Of a DNA stretch of 34,597 nt, positions 1,905 to 30,415 are shown piece by piece. How positions within the stretch are numbered: the stretch's first letter is position 1; every line of letters starts with the position of its first letter. This DNA is from Deltaproteobacteria bacterium (GTDB lineage: Bacteria; Desulfobacterota; RBG-13-43-22). The DNA lies in NCBI GenBank assembly GCA_016219225.1, contig JACRBX010000228.1:1-34597 (forward strand), written 5' to 3'. Under the pieces are notes generated by a model. The model made no database searches. It saw only the letters and a program-made list of their open reading frames with translations, and was not told the DNA's origin. The position numbers and the translations under genes were made by a program.

Positions 1905-1972
1905 GGTTTTCTCCTGCGAATAACTTCCTATCGTAATCACTGGATCGTTGGGCCTTCATGGACCGATAATCC

Positions 1973-2590
1973 TCATTCTTTGCGGCCTTTAAGGCCGGAG
2001 AGGGTCTCCACCACCTTACTGGCCGCGGCCAGAACTTCCGATTCCGTCCCGGCTAAGTAGAGCCGTCCGGCGGCACCAAAAAAGGAAATATCGACCAGGC
2101 GCACATTACAGTGTTTTTCCGCTTCATTGGCAGCGATCGAAGAATAGGCCGCCGGGGTCACTTCCAGCAGATAAACATCATCGTTCCCTAATATGAGCAT
2201 ACCCCGGCTGTTCCGGTTGATAATGACCGCCTGGTAGGGATCGATTTTGTTGACAATACTGGTGGCCAGGATTTTAGGAGACAGCCGGTCTTCTTCCTTG
2301 AGCCCGATTTCATCCAAGATCATCCGCCCGGCATGGAGGACTTCTTCCTGATCAAAGGAGTGAATTTCCAGCATGCCGTATCTTCTTTCCACAATCATTT
2401 CTCCTGGCCGGGCGTTGGTCACTTTGAGAGCAATGTCGGTCAGACGGTTAATTTCGATGCCCGGCACTACTTCCACAAAAAGGGAGGCCATTCCCTCCAC
2501 CGGAAGAAATCCCCGGCATCGGCAGGCAAACAGGGAGGCAAATTGAGGCTGCAGGCGGTCAAGATGGCAATAGGCACGTAGCTCAGGCAT
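1973..2590 (-). CDS. BMC-T (tandem BMC domain) shell protein
   Basis: 205 aa. Two BMC-like units can be seen. The first runs roughly over residues 36-95 (SLFVEVVPGIEINRLTDIAL ... VERRYGMLEI). The second runs roughly over residues 130-200 (VYLLEVTPAAYSSIAANEAE ... FFGAAGRLYLAGTESEV) and matches the BMC pattern of strand-helix-'AAneA.kaanV' and 'GRlyLaGteaeV'. It is not the PduB, EutL or PduT type; it looks like a separate trimeric BMC-T class. It lies between the flavoprotein-like and BFD genes. Trimeric BMC-T proteins form pseudohexameric tiles, often with gated pores. The family call is from the pattern only, so a structural check would be needed to rule out a different fold. Confidence 0.75.
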   Translation of the reverse strand: MPELRAYCHLDRLQPQFASLFACRCRGFLPVEGMASLFVEVVPGIEINRLTDIALKVTNARPGEMIVERRYGMLEIHSFDQEEVLHAGRMILDEIGLKEEDRLSPKILATSIVNKIDPYQAVIINRNSRGMLILGNDDVYLLEVTPAAYSSIAANEAEKHCNVRLVDISFFGAAGRLYLAGTESEVLAAASKVVETLSGLKGRKE

Positions 2591-2717
2591 GGACGAATCT
2601 CCTTATAACGATAGATTCTGATGTTACGGATTGCGGGTTGAGAAAGTATAAATTTTTTTAGACCACTCTTAACGCGCAACGCGCAACAGAAAAATTTCAA
2701 ACATTTTTGAATAGGAC

Positions 2718-3515
2718 TCATGTCTCATCAACAACGATCCCGAGTTCTTTGATTAAATCCCGGGCCAAGGGGGTGATGAGACCCCCAGGGACCAGTCTGA
2801 TGACCTTCTTCTGCCCCTCAGCAGCCAAACGGACCTCCTTGGCTGTGATCAACTCCAGCCCAGGAGCATTTTTTTCTTCTGAAACCTCGGAAGGACTTGT
2901 CGATCCGGGTAAAGGGTTTCCCGTTGTCAAGCGTACAAAGGTCTCCGCCAACTGATGGGTCGGGCAAAAGGTCATCCCAAAACGTTCCAACTTTTTTAAT
3001 TGGTTCTCGATTTCCTCTTTTATCGCTTGATTGACCAGCAGGTCGCAGACCATAAAACCGTCCCGGCAGGCCAGCACTTTTTTGCCCTGGATCAAGGCCG
3101 AAAAAACCAGCCGGGATTCCGGGTCATCACAGCTCAGATGGGCCACCTTGGAAGCCACCGTCAGGCATAAGGTGGGCAGTACCAGCCAATCGGCCCGGGC
3201 CAACACCTTTTCCAGACCTTCCGGTTTAACCGTGTCCAGGATACACGGGGTCCCGGCGCGATTGCGCACATCAGACCCGCAGACCCAAGAACGGGCCGAG
3301 GGAGCGGTATAGACCCCGGACCAGCCGGCCGCGGCTTCCAGGGCAGGCAACTGTTTCAAGGCATCTTCCAAACGACGAACACCGGCCTGAAATATGATCA
3401 AGACCCGGGGACCGTGGGGCGTTTGAGAAGGTGACCTGGCCTTGCCCCCTCTGTTCAATTCAGAGAGGACTTCCAAGACCAGCTTCCGGATTTCTTCCTT
3501 AGTGATCGTGACCAT
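2718..3515 (-). CDS. BMC-associated flavoprotein-like protein with N-terminal encapsulation-type helix
   Basis: 265 aa. It starts with an amphipathic helix, ITKEEIRKLVLEVLSEL, the standard look of a BMC encapsulation peptide, followed by a Ser/Gly/Pro-rich linker. The core (GPRVLIIFQAGVRRLEDAL ... ADWLVLPTLCLTVASKVAHL ... ALIQGKKVLACRDGF) resembles the flavoprotein/PF02441-like proteins found in several BMC loci. The C-terminus carries GGLITPLARDLIKELGIVV, a segment recurring in BMC-associated proteins. The stop is 127 nt upstream of the next gene; the start is 18 nt from the end of eutJ. Its function is unknown. A flavin-binding lumen protein is the best guess, and I see no catalytic residue that decides it. 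Confidence 0.7.
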   Translation of the reverse strand: MVTITKEEIRKLVLEVLSELNRGGKARSPSQTPHGPRVLIIFQAGVRRLEDALKQLPALEAAAGWSGVYTAPSARSWVCGSDVRNRAGTPCILDTVKPEGLEKVLARADWLVLPTLCLTVASKVAHLSCDDPESRLVFSALIQGKKVLACRDGFMVCDLLVNQAIKEEIENQLKKLERFGMTFCPTHQLAETFVRLTTGNPLPGSTSPSEVSEEKNAPGLELITAKEVRLAAEGQKKVIRLVPGGLITPLARDLIKELGIVVDET

Positions 3516-3533
3516 AATGGTTTCGCCTCTCCC

Positions 3534-4385
3534 TCAAGAGGCCTTGGAATAGGATGTAAAGATAATTTTTTCTTCCAGACAGGAAAGGGCGATACCATAG
3601 GGAGTTATCCCCTGAGGGGCCTCGGGCCGAAAAACTTCCAGGCCGAGATTCTCGGCTACCAGTTCGGTCAACCCCTCCAATTGGCAGGTCCCTCCCACCA
3701 GACAGATCTTTTTAATATTCCCGAATCCGTTCAGGGCTGAGCGGATAATAGTGGAGATCTTGTCAATCACCGGACGGACGATGGGCAGGCATTCCTGTTG
3801 CCGGGCCTGGTCGGTTTTAATCCTTTCGGCCTGTTCAAAGCTGATCTTCAAATGTCCGGCCAGGACCAGGGAAAGGTGGACCCCGCCGGTAGCCTCATCG
3901 CAGGTCCGGATGATCCTGCCGTCCTGGATCAGGGCCACCCCGGTAGTGCCACCACCCACATCGACAATCGCCCCGTCTTCCAGATTGAGAACCCGGTTGG
4001 CGGCTGTAGGTTCATCAAGGACATTGAGCACCTCCAGACCCGCCCCCTGGAGGATATAGGTGGTGGTATGGATGTTTCCGGATTCCGTTTGAGGGGGATA
4101 GGAGGTAGCCCCTTTTTCAATGGGCAGGGGGCTGCGGGTTCGGATCTCGGCCATTAATTCCTTCAACAGGGCGAGTGTGCCCGGATAGTCAATGATCAGT
4201 CCGCTGCCAATTCCTTCGGATTGCCGCATAAGGGCTGCCCTCGGGAAGCCTTGCTCATCCACCACGATGACCTTGCTCTTACAGGTCCCCAGGTCCACAC
4301 CAGCCCATAATTCCCCCGCCCCTGAAAAATCCCAGTGTTCCGGGCGATTCATGATTCGATTGAGGGTGTCGAGGGGCTTCATCAT
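3534..4385 (-). CDS. eutJ: EutJ-like actin/DnaK-fold ATPase
   Basis: 283 aa from ATG 4385, close to the roughly 280 aa of EutJ. The open frame extends further upstream to 4673, but that part is low-complexity Arg/Gly-rich shadow sequence overlapping the pduT-like gene. The ATG 4385 start overlaps the upstream stop as ATGA (4382-4385). ASKHA landmarks are present: phosphate-1 GVDLGTCKSKVIVVDEQG, EPTAANRVL, phosphate-2 AIVDVGGGTTGVALI, and the adenosine motif CLVGGTCQLEGL. EutJ is a chaperone-like protein of ethanolamine and other metabolosome operons; its exact role is still unclear. Its presence supports a metabolosome-type rather than a carboxysome-type BMC. Confidence 0.88.
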   Translation of the reverse strand: MMKPLDTLNRIMNRPEHWDFSGAGELWAGVDLGTCKSKVIVVDEQGFPRAALMRQSEGIGSGLIIDYPGTLALLKELMAEIRTRSPLPIEKGATSYPPQTESGNIHTTTYILQGAGLEVLNVLDEPTAANRVLNLEDGAIVDVGGGTTGVALIQDGRIIRTCDEATGGVHLSLVLAGHLKISFEQAERIKTDQARQQECLPIVRPVIDKISTIIRSALNGFGNIKKICLVGGTCQLEGLTELVAENLGLEVFRPEAPQGITPYGIALSCLEEKIIFTSYSKAS

Positions 4386-4933
4386 ATCAAATTGGGATAG
4401 AGTTCCCGGCTCAAGGAAGGGATGACCACATGGCTCAGGATCAAGCCTTCCTCTTCCAGGGCCTCCAACCCGGCGCTGACGGCGGCCTGGACCGAGCCCA
4501 CATCCCCGGTCAGGGTCACATAGGATTTTCCGGCCAGACCGGTGGCACAGCGAATCTCGATGATTTCCACCTCGGCTGCTTTGACCGCCGCATCGGCCGC
4601 CATGATACAGGAGGCCGACGAAAAGGTTTCTATAATCCCCAGGGCGCCTATTCGGGGAATCGGGGTCGCACAACTGAGGGCCGGAAAAATGCTCGGGTGC
4701 ACATTGGGAATAACAAAAGAATCCACCAGGAATTCACCGGCCGTTTCTTTGCCCACCGCTACTGAGTTCTGGACCGAACCCACATCCCCGGCGATCATGG
4801 CCAGATAGCGGCCGGGGCAGACCGGACGGGCCATGATGAGTTCCACGCTGGCCGCCTTGATCATTTCATCGGCGGAGTGGATCCCTTTGGCCACGCTGTT
4901 GAGTTCAATCAGTCCTATGGCTTTGAAATCCAT
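4382..4933 (-). CDS. pduT: PduT-like BMC-T shell protein with pore [4Fe-4S] cysteine
   Basis: 183 aa with two BMC domains (residues 4-85 and about 95-175), matching PduT in length and sequence, including VHPSIFPALS after the first domain. The key cysteine of PduT is conserved as Cys39 in ARPVCPGRY. In PduT three such cysteines, one per subunit, hold a [4Fe-4S] cluster at the trimer pore. The gene is 78 nt downstream of the pduS-like gene and overlaps eutJ by 4 nt. Known PduT and PduS act together, and the cluster is thought to pass electrons across the shell. Here that would allow electron export without an NAD-recycling alcohol dehydrogenase. Confidence 0.93.
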   Translation of the reverse strand: MDFKAIGLIELNSVAKGIHSADEMIKAASVELIMARPVCPGRYLAMIAGDVGSVQNSVAVGKETAGEFLVDSFVIPNVHPSIFPALSCATPIPRIGALGIIETFSSASCIMAADAAVKAAEVEIIEIRCATGLAGKSYVTLTGDVGSVQAAVSAGLEALEEEGLILSHVVIPSLSRELYPNLI

Positions 4934-5011
4934 GGTCTATCCTTTAATGAGAAAATACCGTTCGTCGTTGAGCGTTCGGCGTAATAATTTTCATCGAATT
5001 TTTCATGCTTT

Positions 5012-6358
5012 TCAGCGCCCTCCGGGGCTCACCTGTTTGATAACGACCTCTTCCCCGACCGAAACGACCACCCCACTCAGACTGGCATGGATCCTGGCTC
5101 CCAGGGCCTTTTCCGGGATCTCGCCTATCAGGTCCCCTTTTTTAACCCGGTCGCCGGGTTTGACCACCGGCACGGCCGGGGCCCCCAGGTGTTGTTTCAG
5201 GGGAATCCTGACCTGGTCTATCCGGATTTCCAAGGGGAATAAATTTGGATGCACATCATAGCGCCCGATCTGCAGCCGTTCCATCAGCCGTTTGGTAGGG
5301 ATCTTCCGTCCTTCCCTAAAGGCCGAGGGATGGTAGGCCTCCCGTTTCGGAGAACGCTTTATGCCCTGGGCCAGCAAACTTCTTTTGATCTGGGCATTCA
5401 CTTCCCTGGGAGAGATCATCATAGGGCAGGCATATTTCTCGCACACCCCGCACTCTGAGCAGATCAGGGTATCCTTCTGGACCTCCAGTGCCGCTGGAGC
5501 AGCGCCTAATTGTCGCATAATTTTGTGAGGGGCCAATGTGTGTCCTAACAGGCTCCGGGGGCATAGATCCGTACAGCGGGAACATTGACAGCAGACCAGG
5601 CGGGTGATGTTCCGAAGCCGGTCCGGGTCCTTGATTTTATCGGCCACCACCGGGTGATCCGGGGCCAGGACCAAAACCCCGCTGGTCGTCTTGGTTACCG
5701 GCGCAGTCAGGTCCGAGACCACCTGGCCCATCATGGGTCCGCCCAGGACGACTTTATAATCCGTGATCAAGGCTCCCCCGGCCAGGTCGATAACCTCCCC
5801 TACGGAAAGGCCGATGGGCACTTTCAGGATGCACGGCCGGGCCACTTCTCCCCCAACGGTCAGGTACCGGTCTACCACAGGTTTTTTTTCATCCACGGCC
5901 CGGGCAATATTCAAAAGGGACTCTACGTTACTGACTACGGCCCCGACCTGAAGTGGAAGCCCCCCCTCGGGGACCACCCTTTTCATGACCTCATAGACCA
6001 GGACCTGCTCATCCCCGGCCGGATAAAAGTCGCCCAATTCAAAAACATCGATCCCCTGGAAAGGCCCTTTGCCGGCCTTCTCCCGGGCCGCGGCCATGGC
6101 CTCCCGGTGCTTCCCCTTTAAACAGAGGGTCCCCTGAACGGCCCCGGTGCACTCCATGACCAGGCGGAGACCCCGAAGGAGGCGATCGGCTTCATGCTCA
6201 ACCAGATAGGGATCACTCATCAGCAGCGGCTCACAGGAGGCCCCGTTGCCCAGGACCCGTTCCACCCGGGCCTGTAATTTGACGTGGGTAGGAAAACCGG
6301 CCCCTCCGGCACCAACTACCCCGGCTTCCTTTACCCGGTCGATAATCCCCTGGCTCAT
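5012..6358 (-). CDS. pduS: PduS/RnfC-like flavin and Fe-S oxidoreductase
   Basis: 448 aa, the usual PduS length. The N-terminus has the Gly-rich nucleotide/flavin motif GVVGAGGAGFPTHVKL. A SLBB-like segment follows near residues 170-200 (GEVARPCILKVPIGLSVGEV). Two [4Fe-4S] motifs are seen, CCQCSRCTDLCP and CSECGVCEKYACP. The C-terminus is a biotinyl/lipoyl-like barrel (VKPGDRVKKGDLIGEI), as in RnfC. The start codon overlaps the eutN stop as ATGA (6355-6358). PduS reduces cobalamin in propanediol BMCs, but no B12-dependent enzyme is visible here. An electron transfer role between the lumen dehydrogenase and the PduT cluster is the better reading; this is inference. Confidence 0.93.
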   Translation of the reverse strand: MSQGIIDRVKEAGVVGAGGAGFPTHVKLQARVERVLGNGASCEPLLMSDPYLVEHEADRLLRGLRLVMECTGAVQGTLCLKGKHREAMAAAREKAGKGPFQGIDVFELGDFYPAGDEQVLVYEVMKRVVPEGGLPLQVGAVVSNVESLLNIARAVDEKKPVVDRYLTVGGEVARPCILKVPIGLSVGEVIDLAGGALITDYKVVLGGPMMGQVVSDLTAPVTKTTSGVLVLAPDHPVVADKIKDPDRLRNITRLVCCQCSRCTDLCPRSLLGHTLAPHKIMRQLGAAPAALEVQKDTLICSECGVCEKYACPMMISPREVNAQIKRSLLAQGIKRSPKREAYHPSAFREGRKIPTKRLMERLQIGRYDVHPNLFPLEIRIDQVRIPLKQHLGAPAVPVVKPGDRVKKGDLIGEIPEKALGARIHASLSGVVVSVGEEVVIKQVSPGGR

Positions 6359-6651
6359 GATTGACCTGATTTTTTCTGATCCTTGGGCATCTCCAGGCTG
6401 TCCACAATCCCCACCACTGCGGCATCCACGGGGATCAATTCCTCTTTGTTAAAGGCCTGCATGGCCGGGCTGCCCTGGGTGACAAGGACCAGTTCTCCAA
6501 TACCCGCCCCGATTTCATCTGCCGCCACCAGGATATCGCCGGCCGGCATCAGTCCCTTGCCCAAAGGTTGTACAAAGAGGAGCCTCAGGGCGTGGATCTT
6601 GTCATTTTTTTTGGTGGACCAAACGTTTCCCACTACTCGCGCGATTTTCAT
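6355..6651 (-). CDS. eutN: EutN/CcmL/PduN-type BMC-P pentameric vertex protein
   Basis: 98 aa, typical for the family. Landmarks are MKIARVVGNVWSTKKND at the start, LLFVQPL, VAADEIGAGIGELVLVTQGS in the middle, and PVDAAVVGIVDSL near the end. These pentamers cap the vertices of the icosahedral shell, so this gene together with the BMC-H and BMC-T genes shows that a closed shell can form. It is translationally coupled to the pduS-like gene. A repeat copy lies in the gap on its upstream side. Confidence 0.95.
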   Translation of the reverse strand: MKIARVVGNVWSTKKNDKIHALRLLFVQPLGKGLMPAGDILVAADEIGAGIGELVLVTQGSPAMQAFNKEELIPVDAAVVGIVDSLEMPKDQKKSGQS

Positions 6652-6701
6652 AAAACCCTTCCCGATAACCGGATATTCTGATCCAGGCCGAATCCTTTTT
6701 G

Positions 6702-6800
6702 AATTAGGACGCAGATTTTCGCCGATACTCGCAGATAATTATTCTATTTTATCCTGTCAATCTGCGTTCATCGGCGTCCAAAATGGAAATTCCTATACTT
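6702..6800 (+). repeat. Interspersed palindromic repeat, copy 1 of 3 (GGACGCAGATT family)
   Basis: About 100 bp with inverted ends GGACGC (6707-6712) and GCGTCC (6774-6779), inner AGATTTTCGCCGAT and CAATCTGCG arms, and the tail GGAAATTCCTATACT. Copies 2 and 3 are at 28227-28330 and 30441-30546 in the same orientation. This copy lies inside the BMC operon between the permuted BMC-H gene and eutN. No gene is seen here. Confidence 0.85.
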
Positions 6801-6830
6801 TTTAATTACGGAAACAGGCCCCGAAAGGGA

Positions 6831-7136
6831 TTATCCCAATCCGTCCTGGGCTTGAATGGCCTCCAGACTGGCCTTAACGGCGGCAATCTCCCCGAATATC
6901 CCGATCATGGTCAGGTGCTGGGGACAGCTTCCTTTGAGGTCGACCACGTGGACCTCAGCGGCCTTTTCGGCAATGTCGGCCGCGGCGATCATATCCACCA
7001 GCCTCCCCTGGACCAATCCCACGGCACTGAAGCTGAGGATGTCCAGCGTCTTCTTGCCGGCCGAACCCATGCGGGTCATGAGGATGTCAATTACCCCCGG
7101 ACCGGGGTGGGTAATAAACTGGATATTCAACGCCAT
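6831..7136 (-). CDS. Circularly permuted BMC-H shell protein (PduU/EutS-like)
   Basis: 101 aa with the PduU/EutS order: an N-terminal strand region (NIQFITHPGPGVIDILMTRM), then a Gly/Ala hinge, then the main BMC part (AVGLVQGRLVDMIAAADIAEKA ... HLTMIGIFGEIAAVKASLEA). It is shorter at the N-terminus than PduU and lacks the extra strands that form PduU's beta-barrel cap. Hexamers of this type tile the facets. It follows the PduA-like gene by 22 nt and shares its likely transcript. Confidence 0.87.
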   Translation of the reverse strand: MALNIQFITHPGPGVIDILMTRMGSAGKKTLDILSFSAVGLVQGRLVDMIAAADIAEKAAEVHVVDLKGSCPQHLTMIGIFGEIAAVKASLEAIQAQDGLG

Positions 7137-7158
7137 GGTTAACCTTTATTTCCCGGCG

Positions 7159-7440
7159 TTATTTCTCGGCCTTGGGAATAATGAACTCGATATCGCCGTG
7201 GGGTCTGGGAATGACATGCACAGACAGGAGTTCTCCGACCCTTTTGGCCGCGGCCCCGCCGGCATCGGTGGCCGCTTTGACCGCTCCCACGTCCCCCCGG
7301 ACAAATATGGTCACCAAACCGCCGCCCACATGTTCTTTACCGACCATCTTGACGTTGGCCGCTTTGACCATCGCGTCGGCCGCCTCGATGGCTCCGACCA
7401 ATCCTTTAGTTTCAACCATACCTAATGCTTGTTCAGCCAT
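7159..7440 (-). CDS. pduA: PduA/EutM-type BMC-H hexameric shell protein
   Basis: 93 aa and very close to PduA through the whole domain ([20 protein letters not shown] ... [19 protein letters not shown] ... [11 protein letters not shown]). The pore loop reads HVGGGLVT, so the residue equivalent to PduA Ser40 is Gly40, as in EutM-like proteins. That changes pore chemistry and could matter for which small molecule enters. Hexamers of this protein form the bulk of the facets. It is the first shell gene after the ferredoxin gene (24-nt gap). Confidence 0.97.
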
Positions 7441-7463
7441 GTTTTCTTACCTCCTGCTTTTAT

Positions 7464-7976
7464 TTATCTTTTAAATTTAAAGGCCCTGGCCTTCATGGAC
7501 CAGGCTTTCGGCACTTCAATGGTCACCACGGCGGTCTGATCCATTTTCTCGCTTTTCCGGACCGCCGCTACCTGTGCATCCCCTAATACGGTCCCGGACC
7601 GATCCAGGGCCAAAACCGTTTCTCCCTTTTCCGGTAAGGGTAGAAATTCATAGGGCAGGCTTACCGCGGCGCGATCCTCCGGGAGGCTCTCGTCCACCAC
7701 AAAGATGGCCTGACCCGGGCAGATGGGGATACAGGATTGACAGCCGATACATTTTTCCCCCTCCAGCCGGGGCAGGTTGGTTATATCCTGCCCGACCGAA
7801 ATGGCCTCCACCCGGCAACTGGCCTCGCAGGGATTGCAAGGGATATGCTCGGTACATTCGATGACCGCCACCGGTCCTTTCCGACGTCTTTCCTCGGAAG
7901 GGACCCCGGGACCGGCCCCTAATTCTTCTTCTGAAAGAAAGCCTGTTTGGGATAATCCGTGAGCCATAGCCTTCAT
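7464..7976 (-). CDS. Two-cluster [4Fe-4S] ferredoxin subunit of the amine dehydrogenase
   Basis: 170 aa. One cluster motif is unusual in spacing, CTEHIPCNPCEASC (C-x5-C-x2-C-x3-C), and the second is the classical CIGCQSCIPICP. The N-terminal LSEEELGAGPGVPSEERRR and the roughly 80-residue C-terminal beta-rich part are of the kind seen in ferredoxin subunits next to HcnB/HcnC-like dehydrogenases. The start overlaps the stop of the FAD/NAD gene as ATGA (7973-7976), so coupling is likely. It probably carries electrons from the FAD subunits towards the PduS-like protein. Confidence 0.85.
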   Translation of the reverse strand: MKAMAHGLSQTGFLSEEELGAGPGVPSEERRRKGPVAVIECTEHIPCNPCEASCRVEAISVGQDITNLPRLEGEKCIGCQSCIPICPGQAIFVVDESLPEDRAAVSLPYEFLPLPEKGETVLALDRSGTVLGDAQVAAVRKSEKMDQTAVVTIEVPKAWSMKARAFKFKR

Positions 7977-9061
7977 CCTTGCATAAGGGCATATACTGTG
8001 TTTTTATTTTCTTTGCGGGTCTCCCCGTACGGGCCGCTACGTAACCCGGCCATACTCTCTAACTGCTGGCTCCGCTGAGATTCAAAGGCCGAAGTGTCAA
8101 GGTATCCCAGACTATGGGCAATGGCCAGACCGGCAATCCGGCCCTCAATAATGGCCGTGCTGGCTTCCTCGATGCCGGAAACATCACCGGCCACATAAAT
8201 CCCCGGAATAGAGGTTTCCTGGTTCAAATTATGAGCCGGTACATTTCCCCCCAGGGCCGGAAGGTTGGCCATTTTACATTTGGCCATGCGCAGGAGCTGG
8301 GTCATGGGATTGAGGCCCACGGCAATGCAGATGGTGTCCACCTCCAGGTGTTTTTCGGTTCCGGCCATCGGTTTCCATGATGGATCCACTTCGACGATAA
8401 CGGCCCCTTCTACCTGGTTTTTCCCCTGGGCCTCTTTGATGGTATGGGACATAAAGAAGGGGACGCCAAATCTGGCCACCTTGGCCGCATGGACCCCGTA
8501 ACCCCCGATCTCGGGTGCGGCGTCGATAACCGCCACTACCTGGCATCCGGCCTGAAGGAGCTGAAAGCTGACCACCACCCCCACGTTGCCGGAGCCCACC
8601 ATGAGAATTTTATTCCCCGGTCGCACCCCGTGGATATTGGCCATGGTCTGGGCCGCACCGGCCCCGATTACACCGGGAAGGGTCCAGCCCGGGAAGGGGA
8701 TCATGTTCTCCGAGGCGCCGGTGGCCACCAGAATCCGTTCGGCCTTGACCTCTTCGATCTTATCCTTACACCAGACATTCATGGTCTTATTCTCATAGAT
8801 CCCCAGGACGGTGGCTTTGAGGGCCACTTCCACCCCGAGCCGGCGGGCTTCGTCCAAAAGGCCCTGGCCGATATGGAAACCCCGCTCCTGGGCGTGATGT
8901 TCCCGGGAACCGAAAAATTTATGGATCTGTTTAAAGAGCTGGCCCCCCGGACGCTCGTTTTCATCAAAAACCACCACGTCCACGCCGCAGCGGGCCGCTT
9001 CAATAGCGGCCGAAAGACCGGCCGGGCCGGCCCCGACACAGATCATTTCATAGCGTCTCAT
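7973..9061 (-). CDS. FAD/NAD(P)-dependent oxidoreductase, HcnB/sarcosine-oxidase-alpha-like
   Basis: 362 aa from ATG 9061, which overlaps the upstream stop as ATGA (9058-9061). The open frame reaches 9202, but the extra part is a shadow of the [2Fe-2S] gene. Two Rossmann sites are visible: MICVGAGPAGLSAAIEAARCG near the N-terminus and ILMVGSGNVGVVVSFQLLQAG in the middle. ATGASENMIPFPGW lies between them, and GIYVAGDVSGIEEASTAIIEG is the C-terminal FAD motif. This matches the FAD subunit of HcnABC, opine oxidase and dye-linked proline dehydrogenase. The [2Fe-2S] domain usually fused or adjacent is the separate gene just upstream. No GcvT domain is attached, unlike sarcosine oxidase alpha. Confidence 0.92.
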   Translation of the reverse strand: MRRYEMICVGAGPAGLSAAIEAARCGVDVVVFDENERPGGQLFKQIHKFFGSREHHAQERGFHIGQGLLDEARRLGVEVALKATVLGIYENKTMNVWCKDKIEEVKAERILVATGASENMIPFPGWTLPGVIGAGAAQTMANIHGVRPGNKILMVGSGNVGVVVSFQLLQAGCQVVAVIDAAPEIGGYGVHAAKVARFGVPFFMSHTIKEAQGKNQVEGAVIVEVDPSWKPMAGTEKHLEVDTICIAVGLNPMTQLLRMAKCKMANLPALGGNVPAHNLNQETSIPGIYVAGDVSGIEEASTAIIEGRIAGLAIAHSLGYLDTSAFESQRSQQLESMAGLRSGPYGETRKENKNTVYALMQG

Positions 9062-9381
9062 AGTTTCACCGGTAAAAGGTCCGGCCCTTTGCCAACCTGG
9101 ATTCGAACCGCCATGCCGGCCTTTAGGGGAACGACACAGGTCCGCACATTGGGCACGCCGTCCACGACCATGATACAATCGGTGCACCGTCCGATGGCGC
9201 AAAACATCCCCCGGGGTTCATTTCTTTTGGGGGTATAGCGATGGATCAAGATCCCGTTGCTCCGGAGGGCCATGGCGATGGGTTCTCCTTCGAAACCCTC
9301 CATAATTTTTTCTTCAAAATGAAACTGGACCTTTTGACCTTTTTCAAATTTTCCTAAAATGGGATGTTCCTGAATACGCAT
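9058..9381 (-). CDS. [2Fe-2S] plant-type ferredoxin-like subunit (HcnA/Fer2_4)
   Basis: 107 aa from ATG 9381, with GGAAAG a few bases upstream; a TTG at 9393 in frame is possible but less likely. The cluster motif is FCAIGRCTDC followed by C after VPNVRT, as in the N-terminal domain of sarcosine oxidase alpha and HcnA. IRSNGILIHRYTP-like sequence precedes it. It overlaps the FAD/NAD gene by 4 nt. It is the smallest subunit of the proposed amine dehydrogenase. Its upstream gap is a repeat, so the split between the Gln/Glu genes and the dehydrogenase genes may mark a later join. Confidence 0.9.
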   Translation of the reverse strand: MRIQEHPILGKFEKGQKVQFHFEEKIMEGFEGEPIAMALRSNGILIHRYTPKRNEPRGMFCAIGRCTDCIMVVDGVPNVRTCVVPLKAGMAVRIQVGKGPDLLPVKL

Positions 9382-9394
9382 GACACTTTCCAAT

Positions 9395-9546
9395 TTCGGA
9401 TTTCAGATTTCGGATTTCGGATTTCAGATTTAGGAATTTAAAAGCCTTCCTTCGACATTCATTATTCGATATTCGATATTCGACATTCGCTTTTTTTCTG
9501 GTTCAAAGCACCCTCCTGGACATGAAGGTTTAACACGAAATAGGGT
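9395..9546 (+). repeat. Interspersed repeat copy with two 7-bp tandem tracts
   Basis: Contains (ATTTCGG)-like units from 9395, then GGAATTTAAAAG, then CCTTCGACATTCAT and (ATTCGAT)n, then CGCTTTTTT and a weak copy of the GTGCC...GAAATAG palindromic element. The same order is seen at 16490-16637. It separates the glutamate-synthase-like genes from the [2Fe-2S] gene inside the operon. Confidence 0.75.
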
Positions 9547-9548
9547 GC

Positions 9549-10871
9549 TTAACAAAACCCAAACCTTTCGGTAAAGGTGAAGTTGGTTCCCACCAGGGGG
9601 ATGCCGGTCATGGCACAGGCCTCCAGGGTGAGGGAGCGGATGTCTTCCCTCTCCAGGTTGGCCAATTTGGTCTTTCCCGTGGCCTTGGCCAAAAGAACGG
9701 TTTCGTAGGTCATGGCTTTTACATAGTTGGCCACCCGCAAGGCCGCCGCATCGATGTCGAGGTTTTTCCTCAATTCCGGGTCCTGAGTCCCGATGCCAAA
9801 TGGACATTTCCCTTCATGGCACTTGAGGCAGACCACGCATCCCATGGCCACCATGGCCCCGGTACCAATGGCCACGGCATTGGCCCCTAAAGCCAGGGCC
9901 TTGGCCACGTCGGCCCCGTCCTTGATTCCCCCGGAGACGATCAGACTGACTTCGTCCTTGACCCCCATTTCCTCCAGGGCCCGGACGGCCTGTATCAAGG
10001 CCGGAAGGGTAGGGATCCCTAAATGTTTGGAGGCCATGACCGGGGCTGCTCCGGTGCCTCCCTCGGAGCCGTCGATGACGACGCCGTCGGCACCGGTTTT
10101 GACGGCTATTTTTACATCTTCGCGGACCCGTCCCGCGGCCATTTTGATAAAGATGGGGATCTGGTAATCGGTGACATCCCGGAGTTCCTGAATCTTCAGG
10201 ACCATGTCATCGGCCCCGAAGATATCCCCGTGACGGGGATGGCTGTGCAGATCGATCCCCTCCGGCAGTTGCCGGAATTGGGCAATCTCCTTGGTGATCT
10301 TGCTGCCCATGAGGTGTCCTGACAGGCCGGGTTTGGCCCCGATACCGGTAATCAGTTCCAGGGCGTCGGCGGCTTCGATGTTGGCCAGGGAAAAACCCAT
10401 CCGGCTGGGGGTGATCTGTACCACCTGTTTATAGGAATTCTGCCGCTCCTCGGGCAGCAACCCCCCTTCGCCGTTGTTAATGGAGTTCCCCACCAGCTGG
10501 GTGGATTTGGCCAGGGCAATCTTGGCCTCTTTACTCAAGGCCCCGTAAGACATACCGGAAATCATAATGGGGGTCTCAAGAACCAGGGGTTTTTTGGCGT
10601 ATCGGGCGCCTAAGACCGTCCGGGTAACGCATTCTTCACGATAGGTGTCCACGGACAGACGGGAAAGCTGGGCCGCCAGGATCAGCAGGTCATCGAAGTT
10701 GGGATAGCGGGAGGTGGAGCCACAGCCCCGGATGCGGTGCTTTCCGGTAAAGGCCTTGTACTTGACCTCGGCCACGGTCTCGGCATTCCAGACCCCGCGC
10801 TGCACATCTTTGGGTTTAGGTGCCTTCCCCTGTTCCACGTACTGTTCCTGATATAATTTTTCATCTGACAT
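9549..10871 (-). CDS. FMN/[3Fe-4S] glutamate synthase domain protein (MgsC/GlxD-like)
   Basis: 440 aa, equal to the central FMN-binding domain of GltB as a separate protein. Visible features are MISGMSYGALSKEAKIALA, the FMN barrel with GLSGHLMGSKI, DLHSHPRHGDIFGADD, VIDGSEGGTGAAPV and LIVSGGIKDGADVAKALALG, and the Fe-S motif CVVCLKCHEGKCPFGIG. Stand-alone proteins of this kind are N-methylglutamate synthase subunit MgsC and rhizobial GlxD. Its start is 2 nt from the GXGXG stop. With the two upstream genes it would form a glutamate-synthase-like enzyme using 2-oxoglutarate and ammonia or an amine. Which amine donor is used cannot be read from sequence. Confidence 0.92.
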   Translation of the reverse strand: MSDEKLYQEQYVEQGKAPKPKDVQRGVWNAETVAEVKYKAFTGKHRIRGCGSTSRYPNFDDLLILAAQLSRLSVDTYREECVTRTVLGARYAKKPLVLETPIMISGMSYGALSKEAKIALAKSTQLVGNSINNGEGGLLPEERQNSYKQVVQITPSRMGFSLANIEAADALELITGIGAKPGLSGHLMGSKITKEIAQFRQLPEGIDLHSHPRHGDIFGADDMVLKIQELRDVTDYQIPIFIKMAAGRVREDVKIAVKTGADGVVIDGSEGGTGAAPVMASKHLGIPTLPALIQAVRALEEMGVKDEVSLIVSGGIKDGADVAKALALGANAVAIGTGAMVAMGCVVCLKCHEGKCPFGIGTQDPELRKNLDIDAAALRVANYVKAMTYETVLLAKATGKTKLANLEREDIRSLTLEACAMTGIPLVGTNFTFTERFGFC

Positions 10872-10873
10872 GG

Positions 10874-11572
10874 CTACGACCCCGCTTGCTGGTGTGTGGG
10901 TTTAAACAGGAAATATTCATGGCGGCCCAGGACCTTGGGGACCACGCTCCGGAAATTTTCCACCCCCTGCTCCAGGCCGTATTTCTTGAAAAGGCTTTCC
11001 ACGGCCCGTTTCTCGTCATCGGAAATGGGAATGAGGGAGGCATTTCCTCCCAATTTTTCTTCCGCGGCAGGGTCCAGGATGTGAATGACCCCGTTGTACA
11101 TGGACTCCCCGATGACCGGTCCCATTTCCCCCAGGACTATGATCCGCCCTCCCAGGGTCATATAACCGGTCCAGCGCCCCACGTTTCCCAAAATAATCAG
11201 ATTGCCCCCCTTCATCCCCAGGCCGGCCCGGCTGCCGCTGTTGCCTTTTACCAGGATGGTGCCCCCCAACATAGAGGGACCGCAGTTGCTGCCTGTATTC
11301 ATCTCGATAATGATCTCGCCGGCCTTCATGTTGTCCCCGGTGTACCAGCCGGTATTTCCCTTTATCTTCAGGGTAGGGCCTTCCAAAAAACCCCCGGTAT
11401 AAAAGCCCGTGCTCCCCTGAACGGCGATGGTGCCTTCCCCCTTCAGGGCCGTGGCGAAATTGTGGACCGAATGGGGATTTTCAATGATGATTTCCTGATC
11501 CTGTTGAATAACCTCTTTGAGCTTTCGATTTACATCCCGACTGCTCATGCCGGCGATATCTATACGGACCAT
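10874..11572 (-). CDS. GXGXG-domain protein, glutamate synthase domain 3 (MgsB/GlxC-like)
   Basis: 232 aa. It is made of repeated right-handed helix units of the GltB C-terminal domain: GEGTIAVQGSTGFYTGG, LKIKGNTGWYTGDNM, GGTILVKGNSGSRAG and NLIILGNVGRWTGY. The N-terminus IAGMSSRDVNRKLKEV is typical of the family. It has a good AGGAGGTG Shine-Dalgarno and overlaps the amidotransferase gene by 13 nt. In glutamate synthase this domain is structural and helps to form the ammonia tunnel. As a free subunit it occurs in MgsABC and GlxBCD systems. Confidence 0.93.
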   Translation of the reverse strand: MVRIDIAGMSSRDVNRKLKEVIQQDQEIIIENPHSVHNFATALKGEGTIAVQGSTGFYTGGFLEGPTLKIKGNTGWYTGDNMKAGEIIIEMNTGSNCGPSMLGGTILVKGNSGSRAGLGMKGGNLIILGNVGRWTGYMTLGGRIIVLGEMGPVIGESMYNGVIHILDPAAEEKLGGNASLIPISDDEKRAVESLFKKYGLEQGVENFRSVVPKVLGRHEYFLFKPTHQQAGS

Positions 11573-12459
11573 ACCTTCACACCTCCTGGTTCCATTTCCG
11601 TGGCATAGACATCAGAGACGATAGGGGTTAAGCAGATCTGCTCCGATCCAAAGAGGACAGTCCCATCTTCCCGTTCAAAAAAGAGGACCGGCTTGAATCC
11701 CAACCGGTCCCTGAAGGCCCCGATTTGGTTTCGGGTACTGGCCAGGATGGTAAAAACGCCGTCAAAGGCATCCAGGGCCTGGACCATGGCCCCCTCGAGG
11801 TCCTGGCCTTTTTCTTTCATTTGAAAGGCCAGATAATGAGCGGCCAATTCGGAATCATTATTGGTTTTAAAGCGCACCCCTTTATTTTCCAGACTCCTTC
11901 TCATGTTGAAGTAGTTGGTGAATTGTCCGTTGTGAACGATGGCTAATTCCGGAACCAGACAAGAAATAAAGGGGTGGGCGAAATTGATGTTTTCAACCGT
12001 TTCGGTGGCCAGGCGCACATGACCGATGCCATGGGTGCAGGGACCCACCCGGATATCGTGTGCGCGCTGTAAATCCTCGGCCGATCCCTGATCTTTATAG
12101 ATCTTCAGGTGTTCTCCCAGCGAATGGACACACAGATTGGGGTGGGTATCGATATCCCAATGGAGTCGGGAAATCTGGGAGGAATCCATATCGATGGAGC
12201 CCTCATAAAAGTGAAAGACCCCCTCCCCATGATAACTGCGGGCCTTCCTGACCCGGCCGAAAAGGGCTAAAATTTCCTCCAGATCCTTTTCGTAACAGGG
12301 ATCGGTCAGGGCAACCCTGACCTGGATATCCTTCCTGTTTTCGTACACGGCCAGGCCGGTAGCGTCTCGGCCCCGGTGGACCAGTTCTTTGAGCATATTG
12401 ATCAGGTCCTGCCCCAGGGTGGGGGAATTTTTTCCGATGATTCCAGCGATCCCGCACAT
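11560..12459 (-). CDS. Class II glutamine amidotransferase (MgsA/GlxB-like)
   Basis: 299 aa. MCGIAGIIG at the start gives the N-terminal nucleophile cysteine after Met removal. Also present are VHRGRDATGLAVY, the glutaminase-type segments IGHVRLATETVENINFAHPF and LAIVHNGQFTNYFNMRR, and NNDSELAAHYLAFQ. These match the glutaminase domain of GltB and Pur/Asn class II enzymes. Length and order match MgsA of N-methylglutamate synthase and GlxB. AAAGGAG lies 8-9 nt before the ATG. It supplies ammonia from a glutamine (or perhaps gamma-glutamylamide) side chain to the FMN subunit. Confidence 0.93.
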   Translation of the reverse strand: MCGIAGIIGKNSPTLGQDLINMLKELVHRGRDATGLAVYENRKDIQVRVALTDPCYEKDLEEILALFGRVRKARSYHGEGVFHFYEGSIDMDSSQISRLHWDIDTHPNLCVHSLGEHLKIYKDQGSAEDLQRAHDIRVGPCTHGIGHVRLATETVENINFAHPFISCLVPELAIVHNGQFTNYFNMRRSLENKGVRFKTNNDSELAAHYLAFQMKEKGQDLEGAMVQALDAFDGVFTILASTRNQIGAFRDRLGFKPVLFFEREDGTVLFGSEQICLTPIVSDVYATEMEPGGVKVWSV

Positions 12460-12524
12460 AATAGGTCTCCTTTTCCCTTGGGCAGGCCTATCTCGGCAAA
12501 AAAACGAGTTCGACCTCTCCGCTG

Positions 12525-13865
12525 TTAAAAATGAAAGGAATACTCATTGAACTCCCAGTCGGTTACGGCCTTGCGAAACCGTTCAAGCTCATGCTCTTTA
12601 ACGGCCACAAAGGCCTGGATCAGTTCAGGCCCCAAGGCCGTACAGAGGGTCTTATCGGCCTTCAACTCGGCCAGGGCATCCCGGAGATAAAGGGGAACAG
12701 TGGGATAGGTGCCCGGTTCGGCCCCGTAGATATCCCCTTCAATGGGCTGGCCCGGATCTATTTTGTTTTCAATCCCGTCCAGGCCGGCGGCAAAGGCCGC
12801 GGCATAAACCAAATAGGGATTGGCCGAGGCGCAGGGGGCGCGGTTTTCGATCCGGGTCGCCGGCCCTCGTTCGCCGGGGACCCGGCAGTAGACTGTCCGA
12901 TTATCCAGGCCCCAGACGATAAAATAGGGGGCGAAGGCGTTGGGCACGTACCGCTTATAGGAATTGATCGTGGGGGCCAACAGGGCCGACATCCCTTTGG
13001 CATGGGCCATCAACCCCCCCAGAAAATAGCGCATCAGGTCAGACATCCCCCAGGCTTTGCTCTCGGGATCGTGGAACAGGTTTTTCCGCGAAACCGGATC
13101 GCTTAACGAAAGATGGATATGAAAACCGTTTCCTCCGCTTTCGGTCTTGGGACGGGACATGAAGGTCAACAGCAGATCATTTTGAAAAGCAATTTCTTTG
13201 CAAACATATTTAAAGGTAAAGGTCTGATCGGCCACATCCATGGCCTGAGCGTACTTCCAGTTGATCTCGAACTGTCCGGGGAAAAACTCGTGGTTGGAGT
13301 AGATGATCTCCACCCCCAGGTCCAAAAAGGTATTTTGCAACTTTCTCAGGAGTCCGAGACGATCCACGCGGGGATTGGCCGTATAGACGTTGGAAAGGTT
13401 GGGGTTATACGGCCCGCCCACCCCGGCGGCGTCCAGATTGAAGACAAAAAATTCCAGCTCGGTGGCGGCCACCGGCCTTAAATTTTTTTCCTCGTATTTT
13501 TTTAAGATCCCCTGGAGTACGTTTCGGGGATCGACCGGGTGGGGCACTCCATCCCGCTGGGCACTGGCGATGAAACGGGCGGTCCCCTCCAGGTGGGGCA
13601 ATACGGCAAAGGTGTGGGGATCGGGGATCAGGGTCATATCACGCCATTCGATTTCCGGCCCCATACCGGTCCCCATGGCCACATCGTTGGCCAGATCGAT
13701 AGCATAGATGGCCTGGGCGAAGTTGATGCCCTCGTGGAGGACCTCTTCCAGCCGCCGGGCGGGAACCAGTTTACTGCGGCAGATTCCGAACAAATCCGGA
13801 AAATCAATTCGAAGGGTGTCGATGTGATGCACATTTATTTTCTCTTTAATTTCATCTAGCTCCAC
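12525..13865 (-). CDS. Glutamine-synthetase-family gamma-glutamyl ligase (GlnA3/GlnT/PuuA/GmaS type)
   Basis: 446 aa from a GTG at 13865 with AAAGGGGG just upstream. GS-family signatures are EFFPGQFEINW (metal/glutamate site), GGNGFHIHLSL (ATP site), APTINSYKRYVPNAFAP, and the glutamate-binding RIENRAPCASANPYL. The C-terminus DWEFNEYSFHF resembles PuuA/GlnA3 proteins and lacks the usual adenylylation segment of GlnA. These proteins join glutamate to ammonia or to amines such as methylamine, putrescine or ethanolamine. Being next to split glutamate synthase genes is the arrangement of gmaS-mgsABC and glnT-glxBCD. It is the first gene of the BMC operon, with the promoter directly upstream. Its amine substrate is unknown. 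Confidence 0.9.
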   Translation of the reverse strand: MELDEIKEKINVHHIDTLRIDFPDLFGICRSKLVPARRLEEVLHEGINFAQAIYAIDLANDVAMGTGMGPEIEWRDMTLIPDPHTFAVLPHLEGTARFIASAQRDGVPHPVDPRNVLQGILKKYEEKNLRPVAATELEFFVFNLDAAGVGGPYNPNLSNVYTANPRVDRLGLLRKLQNTFLDLGVEIIYSNHEFFPGQFEINWKYAQAMDVADQTFTFKYVCKEIAFQNDLLLTFMSRPKTESGGNGFHIHLSLSDPVSRKNLFHDPESKAWGMSDLMRYFLGGLMAHAKGMSALLAPTINSYKRYVPNAFAPYFIVWGLDNRTVYCRVPGERGPATRIENRAPCASANPYLVYAAAFAAGLDGIENKIDPGQPIEGDIYGAEPGTYPTVPLYLRDALAELKADKTLCTALGPELIQAFVAVKEHELERFRKAVTDWEFNEYSFHF

Positions 13866-23895: not shown

Positions 23896-25146
23896 ATGCC
23901 GTCTTTGAACTCTTTTGAAATTGCCCAGCAACAGGTGGACATTGCCAGTCCCTTTTTAAAGGTGGACGATGGAATCCTGGACATGCTCAAACAAACCAAA
24001 CGGGAACTGGTGGTCCATTTTCCTGTAAAAATGGACGATGGAAAGACCCAGATCTTTACAGGATATCGGATCCTCCACAATCCGGCCTTAGGACCGGGAA
24101 AAGGAGGTATCCGCTACCATCCTGATGTAAATTTGGACGAAGTCCGTGCCCTGTCCATGTGGATGACCTGGAAGGCCGCCGCGGTTAACATTCCCTTTGG
24201 CGGGGCCAAAGGAGGGGTCCGGTGCAATCCTAAAGAGATGTCCCTCTCCGAGATAGAAAGATTGACCCGCCGGTTTACCTGGGAAATCGCCAGTTTTATA
24301 GGGCCGGATAGCGACATCCCGGCTCCGGATGTTAATACCAACCCCCAGACCATGGCCTGGATCATGGACACCTATAGTATCCTCAAAGGCTATTCCGTAC
24401 CAGGGATGGTTACCGGCAAGCCCCTTGAGTTGGGCGGTTCGGTGGGCCGCTTAGAGGCCACGGGGAGAGGGGTTTTTATTTCCGCTCTTGAAGCGGCCCG
24501 TCATCTGGGCTTGAAGATCGAAGGGTCCCGGGTAGCCATCCAGGGTGCCGGAAATGTCGGGGGCATAGCCGCCCAATATTTTCATTCGGCCGGGGCCAAG
24601 GTTATCGCCATCAGCGATTCCAAGGGGGGCCTTTATAATCCCGATGGACTGGATCTCGTTGAGACCTTATCCTGCAAACGCAACTATCAGTGTTTTTTGA
24701 CCGATGTCGTCAAAGCTGATTCGATCACCAACCATGAGCTGTTGGAGATCGATTGCGATATTTTAATTCCCGCCGCCTTAGAGAACCAGATTACCGGAGA
24801 GAACGCCCCCAGGCTTCGGTGTCGATTAGTAGCCGAAGGAGCCAACGGGCCGACTACACCCGAAGCCGATGCCATCCTTTTTGATCGAGGCATTTTTTTG
24901 ATTCCCGATATCCTGGCCAATGCCGGCGGGGTTACGGTTTCTTATTTCGAATGGGTCCAGAATCTCCAGGAACTCCTCTGGAGTGAAGAGGAGGTATCAA
25001 ATCGTCTTCAAAGGATCATGTCCAAAGCCTTTAAGGAAATCCTGGAGATTTCCCTGAAGGAAAAGGTCCACATGCGCACAGCGGCCTATATCCTGGCCAT
25101 AGGTCGCGTTGCCAAGGCCATATCCTTGAGAGGGCTTTTCCCCTGA
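23896..25146 (+). CDS. gdhA: Glutamate dehydrogenase (Glu/Leu/Phe/Val family), copy 1
   Basis: 416 aa. Features are GPGKGGIRYHPDV, the catalytic lysine in PFGGAKGG, DIPAPDVNTNPQTMAWI, and the Rossmann motif IQGAGNVGGIAAQ with ISDSKGGLYNPDG after it. AAGGAGG lies just before the ATG. It interconverts glutamate with 2-oxoglutarate and ammonia, probably NAD-linked. Copy 2 (29165-30415) is closely similar, and a third C-terminal fragment lies at 15615-15815. In this operon it would handle glutamate made from the imported substrate, or feed the glutamate-using enzymes of the BMC locus. Confidence 0.95.
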   Translation: MPSLNSFEIAQQQVDIASPFLKVDDGILDMLKQTKRELVVHFPVKMDDGKTQIFTGYRILHNPALGPGKGGIRYHPDVNLDEVRALSMWMTWKAAAVNIPFGGAKGGVRCNPKEMSLSEIERLTRRFTWEIASFIGPDSDIPAPDVNTNPQTMAWIMDTYSILKGYSVPGMVTGKPLELGGSVGRLEATGRGVFISALEAARHLGLKIEGSRVAIQGAGNVGGIAAQYFHSAGAKVIAISDSKGGLYNPDGLDLVETLSCKRNYQCFLTDVVKADSITNHELLEIDCDILIPAALENQITGENAPRLRCRLVAEGANGPTTPEADAILFDRGIFLIPDILANAGGVTVSYFEWVQNLQELLWSEEEVSNRLQRIMSKAFKEILEISLKEKVHMRTAAYILAIGRVAKAISLRGLFP

Positions 25147-26820: not shown

Positions 26821-27423
26821 ATGAACCTTGATAAGAATCTAATCCCATTTCTGCGGACCGATTCGGAATATTTCATTCAAAATTTGGGAGAACCCCAGGA
26901 AAACGGGGAGGGGTTCTCCTTTCCGGTTCAAAACCTTCCTTTCTCCAGTTTTAAAATCCATTATGGCCTGGAGAAAAAATTTCTCGGAAAGATTTACGTC
27001 ATGGTCCTGGAAGGACAATTTCCGGGAAAGCGGCCTTTCTCCGCTCCAGAAGACCTTGAACTTCGTTATTCCGGTTTCATAAAAAAAGGAAGGCCTTTTT
27101 TTTCCCCGCCGGGTTCCAAAGAAATGGGAAACAATCGAGATGGAGTGGACCAACTCCTGAATCAAGATCAAGGCCTTCTTGAGGAATGTTGGAAATTGGA
27201 GATCGAATTTCTAAAAATACGATTTGATCCCCAGAACCAGATTTGGAAAATTCAGGTCAGACCTTATGGCGGCTCCTTTCTTAAAATTTTACTACCTCCC
27301 CTGAAATATCATGTCATTCTGATCAAGGACCAAGCGGTGCTCATCTTTTCCGTGATGAAGAAGATAGCCCACTTATTAACTAATCGTTTCCACCGAGATT
27401 CCGGAAATTCCGGAGCCCGATGA
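26821..27423 (+). CDS. Unknown cytoplasmic-looking protein, 200 aa
   Basis: It starts 8 nt after the permease stop, so it is probably in the same operon. No signal peptide or membrane helix is evident. The sequence is rich in Phe, Lys and Pro, with an alternating beta pattern (FSSFKIHYGLEKKFLGKIYV) and a C-terminal VILIKDQAVLIFSVMKKIAH. I do not recognise the family. The intact 200-codon frame and its spacing support a real gene. Confidence 0.7.
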   Translation: MNLDKNLIPFLRTDSEYFIQNLGEPQENGEGFSFPVQNLPFSSFKIHYGLEKKFLGKIYVMVLEGQFPGKRPFSAPEDLELRYSGFIKKGRPFFSPPGSKEMGNNRDGVDQLLNQDQGLLEECWKLEIEFLKIRFDPQNQIWKIQVRPYGGSFLKILLPPLKYHVILIKDQAVLIFSVMKKIAHLLTNRFHRDSGNSGAR

Positions 27424-27563: not shown

Positions 27564-27968
27564 CTATTTCCGCTCGGTCGGATATTTTTTTCGATCCCAT
27601 TCAACCCAGCCGCCTTTCAGGGCGTAGACTTTATTAAATCCCAGATGAACTAGTTCCTGTGCCACACGGGCACTGGTCGCTTCATCATCTCAAGCGCAGT
27701 AAAGAACAATGGTTTTCTCCTTGGCATATTTAGGCGCCCAGGTCTTCACATCCTCCGGATCTTCCCGAACCGCCCCTTTGATTTGTTTCATCTTCATCTT
27801 TCGATCCAATGCGATCCGGACATCAATAATCACCCAGTCCGGATTTCCAAGCATCGGTTTGAGTTCCTCTTTGCTGATTCGAGGGATATCCACAGCCCCT
27901 GCGCTTACGACCCGGACCCCCAAAACCATAAAGACCATCGCCATCCAAACCATCACCTTTTTTACCAT
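27564..27968 (-). CDS. Secreted rhodanese-domain protein, probable selenoprotein (UGA read as Sec)
   Basis: From ATG 27968 a signal peptide (KKVMVWMAMVFMVLGVRVVS) is followed by a rhodanese start (PDWVIIDVRIALDRKMK, IKGAVREDPEDV). At KTIVLYCA the frame meets TGA (27692-27690). The same frame then goes on with DDEATSARVAQELVHLGF and ALKGGWVEWDRKKYPTE to a TAG at 27566-27564. That second part is the normal rhodanese C-terminus. Related proteins read YCACPxEATSARVA here, so the UGA falls on the second cysteine. A SECIS-like hairpin follows at 27676-27656. Read as Sec, the protein is 134 aa and complete. If not, it is a truncated pseudogene ending at 27690. Likely a periplasmic sulfur or selenium transfer protein. 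Confidence 0.8.
27656..27676 (-). promoter_or_regulatory. SECIS-like hairpin downstream of in-frame UGA
   Basis: On the minus strand, 5'-CC-A-GTGCC-[CGTGT]-GGCAC-A-GG. Seven base pairs with one A-A mismatch close a 5-nt apical loop. The loop starts 21 nt after the UGA and has G at its second position. Both fit the bacterial SECIS pattern (loop about 16-37 nt after UGA, G in the first two loop positions). Confidence 0.7.
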
Positions 27969-29164: not shown

Positions 29165-30415
29165 ATGGAAACGCTGAATTCGTTCCAGATCGCTCAGGAG
29201 CAGGTCGAAATTGCCAGTCGCTATCTCCAGGTGGATGAAGGCGTCATAGAGATGCTTAAACAGACCAAACGTGAGGTGATCGTTCATTTTCCGGTAAAAA
29301 TGGATGATGGCAAGATGCGGATCTTTACCGGTTACCGGGTGGTCCATTCTCCGGCCCGGGGCCCGGCCAAAGGCGGGATCCGCTATCATCCGGATGTGGA
29401 TCTGGATGAAGTCCGCGCCCTGGCCATGTGGATGACCTGGAAGACGGCCGTAGTGAATATCCCTTTTGGAGGGGCCAAAGGCGGGGTCCAATGCGATGTC
29501 AAGGAAATGTCCTTAAAAGAAGTGGAAAATATGACCCGGCGCTTCACCTGGGAAATTGCCCCTTTTATCGGGCCGGAGAGTGATATCCCGGCCCCTGATG
29601 TCTATACCAATCCCCAGGTCATGGCCTGGATCATGGATACCTACAGCATTCTCAAGGGATACTCCGTCCCCGGGGTGGTTACCGGCAAACCGATCGATTT
29701 AGGGGGCTCATTAGGCCGGTTGGAGGCCACCGGGAAAGGGGTTTTCATTACGGCCTCCGAAGCGGCCCGTCTTCTCGGATTATCCATAGAAGGGGCCAGG
29801 GTAGCCATCCAGGGGGCCGGCAATGTCGGGGGCATAGCGGCCCAATTTTTTCAGGCCGCCGGAGCCAAGGTCGTGGCCATCAGTGATTCCAAGGGGGGCC
29901 TTTATAATCCCAAAGGTCTCGATATCCATCAGGCCTTATCCTGCAAAAAACAATACCAGTGTTTCCTGACCGACAAAGTCCATTCCGATGCGATCAGCAA
30001 CCAGGAACTCTTGGAGCTGGATTGCGATATTTTGGTTCCCTCCGCTTTAGAGAATCAAATCACCACCGGGAATGCCGCAAAGCTCCAGTGCCGCATGATT
30101 GTGGAAGGGGCCAACGGACCGACCACCCCCGAGGCCGATGCCATCCTCTTTGGTCGGGGAATTTTTGTGGTCCCGGATATCCTGGCCAACGCCGGAGGGG
30201 TTACCGTTTCTTATTTTGAATGGGTCCAGAATCTCCAGGAGCTTCTCTGGAGTGAAGACGAGGTATCGGACCGCCTCCAGAAAATCCTGTGCCGGGCCTT
30301 CCGGGAAACCCTGGAGATTTCTGAGAAGGAAAAGGTCAACATGCGGACGGCCGCCTACATTTTGGGGGTGGGGCGGGTGGCCAAGGCGGTGCAGCTTCGG
30401 GGAATCTACCCATGA
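29165..30415 (+). CDS. gdhA: Glutamate dehydrogenase (Glu/Leu/Phe/Val family), copy 2
   Basis: 416 aa, the same length as copy 1 and closely similar along its whole length. It has PFGGAKGG with the catalytic lysine, DIPAPDVYTNPQVMAWI, and IQGAGNVGGIAAQFFQAAGA. AAAGGAAG precedes the ATG. Differences from copy 1 are mostly conservative (for example RYLQVDEGVIEML against PFLKVDDGILDML), so this is an older duplication or an imported paralogue rather than a recent copy. The gap upstream (29053-29164) has TTCGGA-type short repeats. Confidence 0.95.
   Translation: METLNSFQIAQEQVEIASRYLQVDEGVIEMLKQTKREVIVHFPVKMDDGKMRIFTGYRVVHSPARGPAKGGIRYHPDVDLDEVRALAMWMTWKTAVVNIPFGGAKGGVQCDVKEMSLKEVENMTRRFTWEIAPFIGPESDIPAPDVYTNPQVMAWIMDTYSILKGYSVPGVVTGKPIDLGGSLGRLEATGKGVFITASEAARLLGLSIEGARVAIQGAGNVGGIAAQFFQAAGAKVVAISDSKGGLYNPKGLDIHQALSCKKQYQCFLTDKVHSDAISNQELLELDCDILVPSALENQITTGNAAKLQCRMIVEGANGPTTPEADAILFGRGIFVVPDILANAGGVTVSYFEWVQNLQELLWSEDEVSDRLQKILCRAFRETLEISEKEKVNMRTAAYILGVGRVAKAVQLRGIYP

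Follow-up and report, generated by a model that had tools for sequence, protein, structure and literature searches.

A predicted exported rhodanese selenoprotein of the rhodanese_LYCAU family in a deltaproteobacterial genome and its double-selenocysteine relatives

Identification of the selenoprotein gene

The DNA analysed (the window) is a stretch of 34,597 nucleotides from a deltaproteobacterial draft genome, and it carries a gene that very probably encodes a genuine selenoprotein, with a UGA codon that would be read through as selenocysteine (Sec). The gene is a member of an already known, computationally predicted selenoprotein family, NCBIfam NF041203 'rhodanese_LYCAU, rhodanese-related (seleno)protein'. 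The read-through product scores 165.2 bits against this model over residues 11-134, where the cut-off is 115, and 157.7 bits in a scan of the genome. The family appears in Table 1 of a 2026 review as 'Rhodanese-like domain-containing protein form 3', with the motif CxU and one Sec (PMC13188914). The window protein resembles the other members in its match over the whole protein, its LYCAU motif, its single Sec and its nature as a short exported rhodanese; no difference sets it apart, and within the family it is unremarkable. Standard gene-calling programs would cut it short at residue 92. The positions of the features are given in Table 1.

Table 1. Features of the rhodanese_LYCAU gene in the window
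Feature	Position	Strand	Basis
rhodanese_LYCAU family (NF041203) selenoprotein gene, predicted	27564..27968	-	ATG start at 27968, stop at 27564-27566; read-through translation
Predicted signal peptide, about residues 1-24: MVKKVMVWMAMVFMVLGVRVVSAG	27897..27968	-	Read from the sequence
Catalytic rhodanese Cys codon (C91)	27696..27698	-	Position after model strand 86-90; conservation in homologues
Predicted Sec codon UGA (U93)	27690..27692	-	Shared UGA in 78 of the 90 loci scored at this column
SECIS hairpin core GUGCC-CGUGU-GGCAC, 5 bp, loop CGUGU	27659..27673	-	Conservation of pairing and covariation

The product and its fold

The minus-strand reading starts MVKKVMVWMAMVFMVLGVRVVSAGAVDIPRISKEELKPMLGNPDWVIIDVR and contains one in-frame TGA; when this is read as Sec the product has 134 amino acids, the C-terminal part of which runs from KTIVLYCAUDD through ALKGGWVEWD to KYPTERK. 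An earlier note on this DNA, which gave no strand, had described a rhodanese frame continuing beyond the TGA. This is confirmed, with 41 sense codons and a stop following the TGA and with the Pfam Rhodanese domain (PF00581) recognised in the read-through product as a single domain at residues 33-126 (54.1 bits, E 2.3e-14). Read as coding sequence, the plus strand of the same interval holds no protein of interest.

The AlphaFold2 model of the read-through product is one rhodanese fold with a mean pLDDT of 88.2. Solved rhodanese structures, GlpE (1gmx) among them, are matched by the model in Foldseek, the best at E 2.8e-08. The LYCAU motif occupies residues 89-93, which places Sec two residues past the catalytic Cys, and the Cys-x-Sec pair (CAU) proposed in the note is found in it as C91 and U93. 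In the model C91 comes directly after strand 86-90, at the mouth of the active-site loop, and U93 lies within this loop ahead of helix 97-108.

A signal peptide had also been anticipated, and one is predicted from the N-terminal sequence, which has a basic N-terminus, a hydrophobic core and a cleavage site of the VSA type. The confidence of the model is low over about residues 1-25. N-termini of the export type are common to the homologues, some being of the lipoprotein type. These features suggest that the rhodanese would be exported to the periplasm. A scan for promoters and terminators around the gene gave nothing useful above chance. A list of the other UGA-extended frames in the window was looked through, and no second case stood out in it.

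Conservation of the UGA codon

Homologues were sought in a sample of 395 genomes of the phylum at E <= 1e-15 and were found in 65 of them. Of 91 homologous loci read in total, 90 were scorable at column 93. UGA is present there in 78, Ser or Ala in about nine, and Cys in two (L080 and L086); in one further locus (L114) the UGA is one codon off the column. The catalytic position is Cys, or Sec in the UxU forms described below, in 89 of the 90. With the NF041203 model, 83 places in the phylum sample are above the cut-off, and 74 of these have TGA. A collection of named genomes was searched with the Sec column masked and the best 80 loci were kept; all 80 have UGA at the Sec column, a figure that is no measure of the frequency of Cys forms. 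These best 80 loci are chiefly deltaproteobacterial or from Thermodesulfobacteriota, and others are from Nitrospirota, Methylomirabilota and Aminicenantes. The genome that contains the window has a paralogue on another contig (C156), 69% identical in sequence and with UGA at the same codon.

Read from these codons, Sec is the usual state in the rhodanese_LYCAU family and Cys is the exception. The earlier note had the UGA standing where relatives have Cys. This was mistaken, as most relatives have Sec, although Cys homologues do exist and are rare.

The SECIS hairpin

The distance from the UGA to the first loop base is 21 nt, and G is the second base of the loop. These values and the loop CGUGU had been given correctly in the note; its 7-bp stem is not seen, the stem being five contiguous pairs (GUGCC/GGCAC) followed by an A.A mismatch and then two more pairs. 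Conservation in the family is limited to the five-pair core, the outer two pairs not being conserved. The bSECIS model asks for 3-9 nt in the apical loop and 4-16 bp in the upper stem, with G within the first two loop positions, a UGA-to-loop spacing of 16-37 nt and a minimum free energy (MFE) <= -7.5 kcal/mol (PMC13188914). The window hairpin fits it, with a 5-nt loop, a 5-bp stem, G in second place, 21 nt and an MFE of -9.6 kcal/mol. Compared with shuffles, this stability has a z of -1.23, which is not unusual for a single sequence, and the case for a SECIS rests on comparative data.

All five pairs are formed in 75 of the 78 UGA homologues, against 3.1 +/- 1.7 expected from synonymous recoding, in which the amino acids of each homologue were fixed and synonymous codons were drawn from the family's own usage. 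The recoding test ignores kinship between the sequences; the effect is likely to be far beyond what kinship would explain. When the register is slid, all five pairs are present in only 0-1 homologues. Where paired third-codon positions fall in a Ser AGY codon and an Ala GCN codon, they covary (T-A 44, C-G 24, C-A 1, T-G 1). Among the loop types listed for the UGA homologues, all have G as the second base. Only one of the 12 homologues scored without Sec at column 93 has kept all five pairs, and the two Cys homologues have no intact SECIS stem. On this comparative evidence the hairpin is a real bacterial SECIS, selected as RNA.

The conservation of both elements also bears on two readings in which no Sec is involved. 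A UGA is by default a stop, and no intact selC is present in the assembly, as would suit a decaying pseudogene that ends at a chance nonsense mutation. However, the paralogue has the same UGA, as do homologues throughout the phylum, the frame 3' of it is conserved and the SECIS is selected, and chance nonsense, which the note had also argued against, is exceedingly improbable. A base-calling or assembly error could have made TGA out of a Cys codon (TGC or TGT), the assembly being a draft of 353 contigs and Cys homologues (L080 and L086) being known in the family. Against this, TGA is found at that place in independent assemblies of many species, and the Cys homologues lack the intact SECIS stem that the window gene has. 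The chance of such an error is tiny; the note had named it as a concern at this codon, and the paralogue on a separate contig and the same-column UGA in many genomes exclude it.

Selenocysteine machinery

The genome encodes a full-length SelB (C54), SelA (C320) and SelD (C203), all above curated cut-offs. In SelD too a UGA is read through, close to the start of the protein (ARAAGUASK) and at the Sec position known for SelD. The Sec genes that the note had suggested looking for are present in the case of selA, selB and selD, and selC is represented only by its 3' 66 nt (C145:159-224), which are identical to the intact selC of a relative (G003) and are preceded by an unrelated 5' part. An intact selC was not found in the draft assembly, nor was one with the diverged selC of G004 as query. 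The match on C145 was rejected as selC, as its 5' half is missing and ARAGORN does not accept it, and the best Rfam tRNA-Sec matches in the genome are ordinary tRNAs (Trp, Ser, Leu, Tyr and Gly). An intact tRNA-Sec is present in each of the four other genomes from the order. We infer that selC falls in a gap of the assembly, next to a repeat derived from selC.

Copies of tRNA-Sec with the 3' part only were seen at L124:145-224 (on C145), at L134 in G003 and at L135 in G001; one such copy in G001 is near a tmRNA gene. They look like attachment-site duplicates of elements inserting at selC.

Comparison with other rhodaneses

Besides the window gene and its C156 paralogue, two rhodanese genes with UGA codons are present in the same genome. 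On C174 there is TsoB (NF045694; 1013.8 bits), a rhodanese/DsbD fusion with two UGA codons and the motif UxxxxU. It shares with the window protein a rhodanese domain that contains Sec and whose active-site loop has two reactive positions. It differs in having Sec in place of the catalytic Cys, a second Sec five residues on and a fused DsbD-like membrane domain, and its model gives the window protein 27 bits. The other gene, on C341, encodes a GlpE-like rhodanese and has UGA in place of the catalytic Cys codon. The single-domain rhodaneses GlpE and PspE of E. coli share the fold and the catalytic Cys with the window protein; unlike it, they use Cys only, have no Sec, and their active-site loop is shorter. 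Selenoprotein rhodaneses of forms 1, 2 and 4 have the motifs UxxS/UxxG (PMC13188914). These forms and the C341 protein are, like the window protein, rhodanese selenoproteins. In the C341 protein, however, Sec is at the catalytic Cys position itself and not two residues beyond it, and the motifs of forms 1, 2 and 4 suggest the same for them.

Double-Sec and cytochrome-linked relatives

UGA is found also at the catalytic Cys (Y-U-x-U) in 11 of the 90 scored loci and in 4 of the best 80 named loci, some genomes being shared between the two sets. The tree includes 12 distinct UxU sequences. The UxU loci are L032, L035, L042, L043, L059, L062, L069, L088, L089, L095, L108 and L160. In these forms 27 nt separate the first UGA from the same SECIS loop, a spacing that the SECIS model still allows, so a single hairpin could serve the two UGAs. 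On the tree, which was built without the two active-site columns and has low resolution (26 of its 146 branches starred), eight changes between UxU and CxU are needed. The UxU protein of G004, from the genus of the window, nests with both CxU proteins from the genome that contains the window (trio 99%, pair 94%). The review table gives one Sec for the rhodanese_LYCAU family and does not list UxU (PMC13188914). No description of a UxU rhodanese was found in the literature searched, which is weak evidence as many subscription papers were outside its scope. The UxU and cytochrome-fused forms appear to be less documented than the CxU family.

In four homologues the rhodanese is joined in one protein to an octahaem hydroxylamine-oxidoreductase-like (HAO-like) cytochrome c with eight CxxCH motifs. 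Three of these (G044, G079 and G270) are UxU and one (G005) is CxU; the G005 fusion protein matches the HAO-like structure 4n4j at E 5e-21. The fusion loci are L136:539-2146, L137, L138 and L139:629-2236. The C156 paralogue and its counterpart in G004 are directly upstream of a gene for a cytochrome c with seven CxxCH motifs, which on C156 is followed by Rieske and cytochrome b genes. At this locus (L128:589-5491) the paralogue is between a MarR regulator and the cytochrome c/Rieske/cytochrome b cluster, after which comes a PCYCGC/CYCXC-type protein. The window copy has no cytochrome neighbour. A general cytochrome neighbourhood was not found; a multihaem gene is nearby in only 2 of the best 80 named loci, and the link to a redox partner is therefore confined to a few lineages.

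Possible function

By the known bacterial pathway, SelB with Sec-tRNA would bind the SECIS hairpin and Sec would be inserted at residue 93. The fold and the anatomy of the active site suggest that C91 would take up sulfane sulfur as a persulfide. The selenolate of U93 may then attack this persulfide, releasing sulfide and closing a C91-U93 selenenylsulfide. A thiol or electron carrier of the periplasm could reduce this bond again, in a few lineages perhaps a cytochrome chain. This cycle is proposed tentatively, with rather less than even confidence. In this reading the protein would be an exported sulfane-sulfur or thiol redox enzyme and not a classical cyanide-detoxifying rhodanese. The resolving step by U93 is not needed in every member, since about nine homologues have Ser or Ala there.

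It is quite conceivable, if short of probable, that the selenoprotein is real and has another job, as a classical thiosulfate:acceptor sulfurtransferase or as a protein that handles selenium or metal(loid)s. Sec would then tune the Cys persulfide and no selenenylsulfide would form. The fold and the catalytic Cys are of the sulfurtransferase type, there is weak similarity to ChrE, GlpE and MoeB-type rhodaneses, and a resolving thiol or selenol is dispensable in the members with Ser or Ala, which leaves room for a plain sulfurtransferase role. Yet Sec is kept in most members, which would be costly for mere tuning of a persulfide, and the Cys-x-Sec and Sec-x-Sec pairs, the cytochrome operon and the fusions favour the redox turnover of the proposed cycle.

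A wider reading would join an undescribed UxU form, with selenium as both of the active-site chalcogens, Cys/Sec switching over short distances (once in the genus of the window) and a periplasmic selenium-based sulfane-sulfur reductase that passes electrons to or from multihaem cytochromes in some lineages, including by way of rhodanese-HAO-like fusions. As a whole this reading is rather unlikely. The cytochrome operon and the fusions hint at where the electrons go, and the natural series CxU, UxU, CxC and CxS lends itself well to studying what sulfane-sulfur chemistry gains from selenium. Of specialist interest are the relatives with two Sec residues or a cytochrome fusion, the window gene being ordinary for its family.

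Other features of the window

Just downstream of the selenoprotein gene and on the opposite strand is an open frame of 200 amino acids (26821-27423, strand +), which has no match in Pfam or NCBIfam. Genes for BMC shell proteins, for a Complex1_51K/RnfC-like protein and for glutamate-synthase-like and glutamine-synthetase-like proteins are present at 1242-13865 (strand -); these genes probably specify a bacterial microcompartment that handles an amine or amino-acid substrate. A pair of similar Glu/Leu/Phe/Val dehydrogenase genes, at 23896-25146 and 29165-30415 (both strand +), encloses both the selenoprotein gene and an amino-acid permease.
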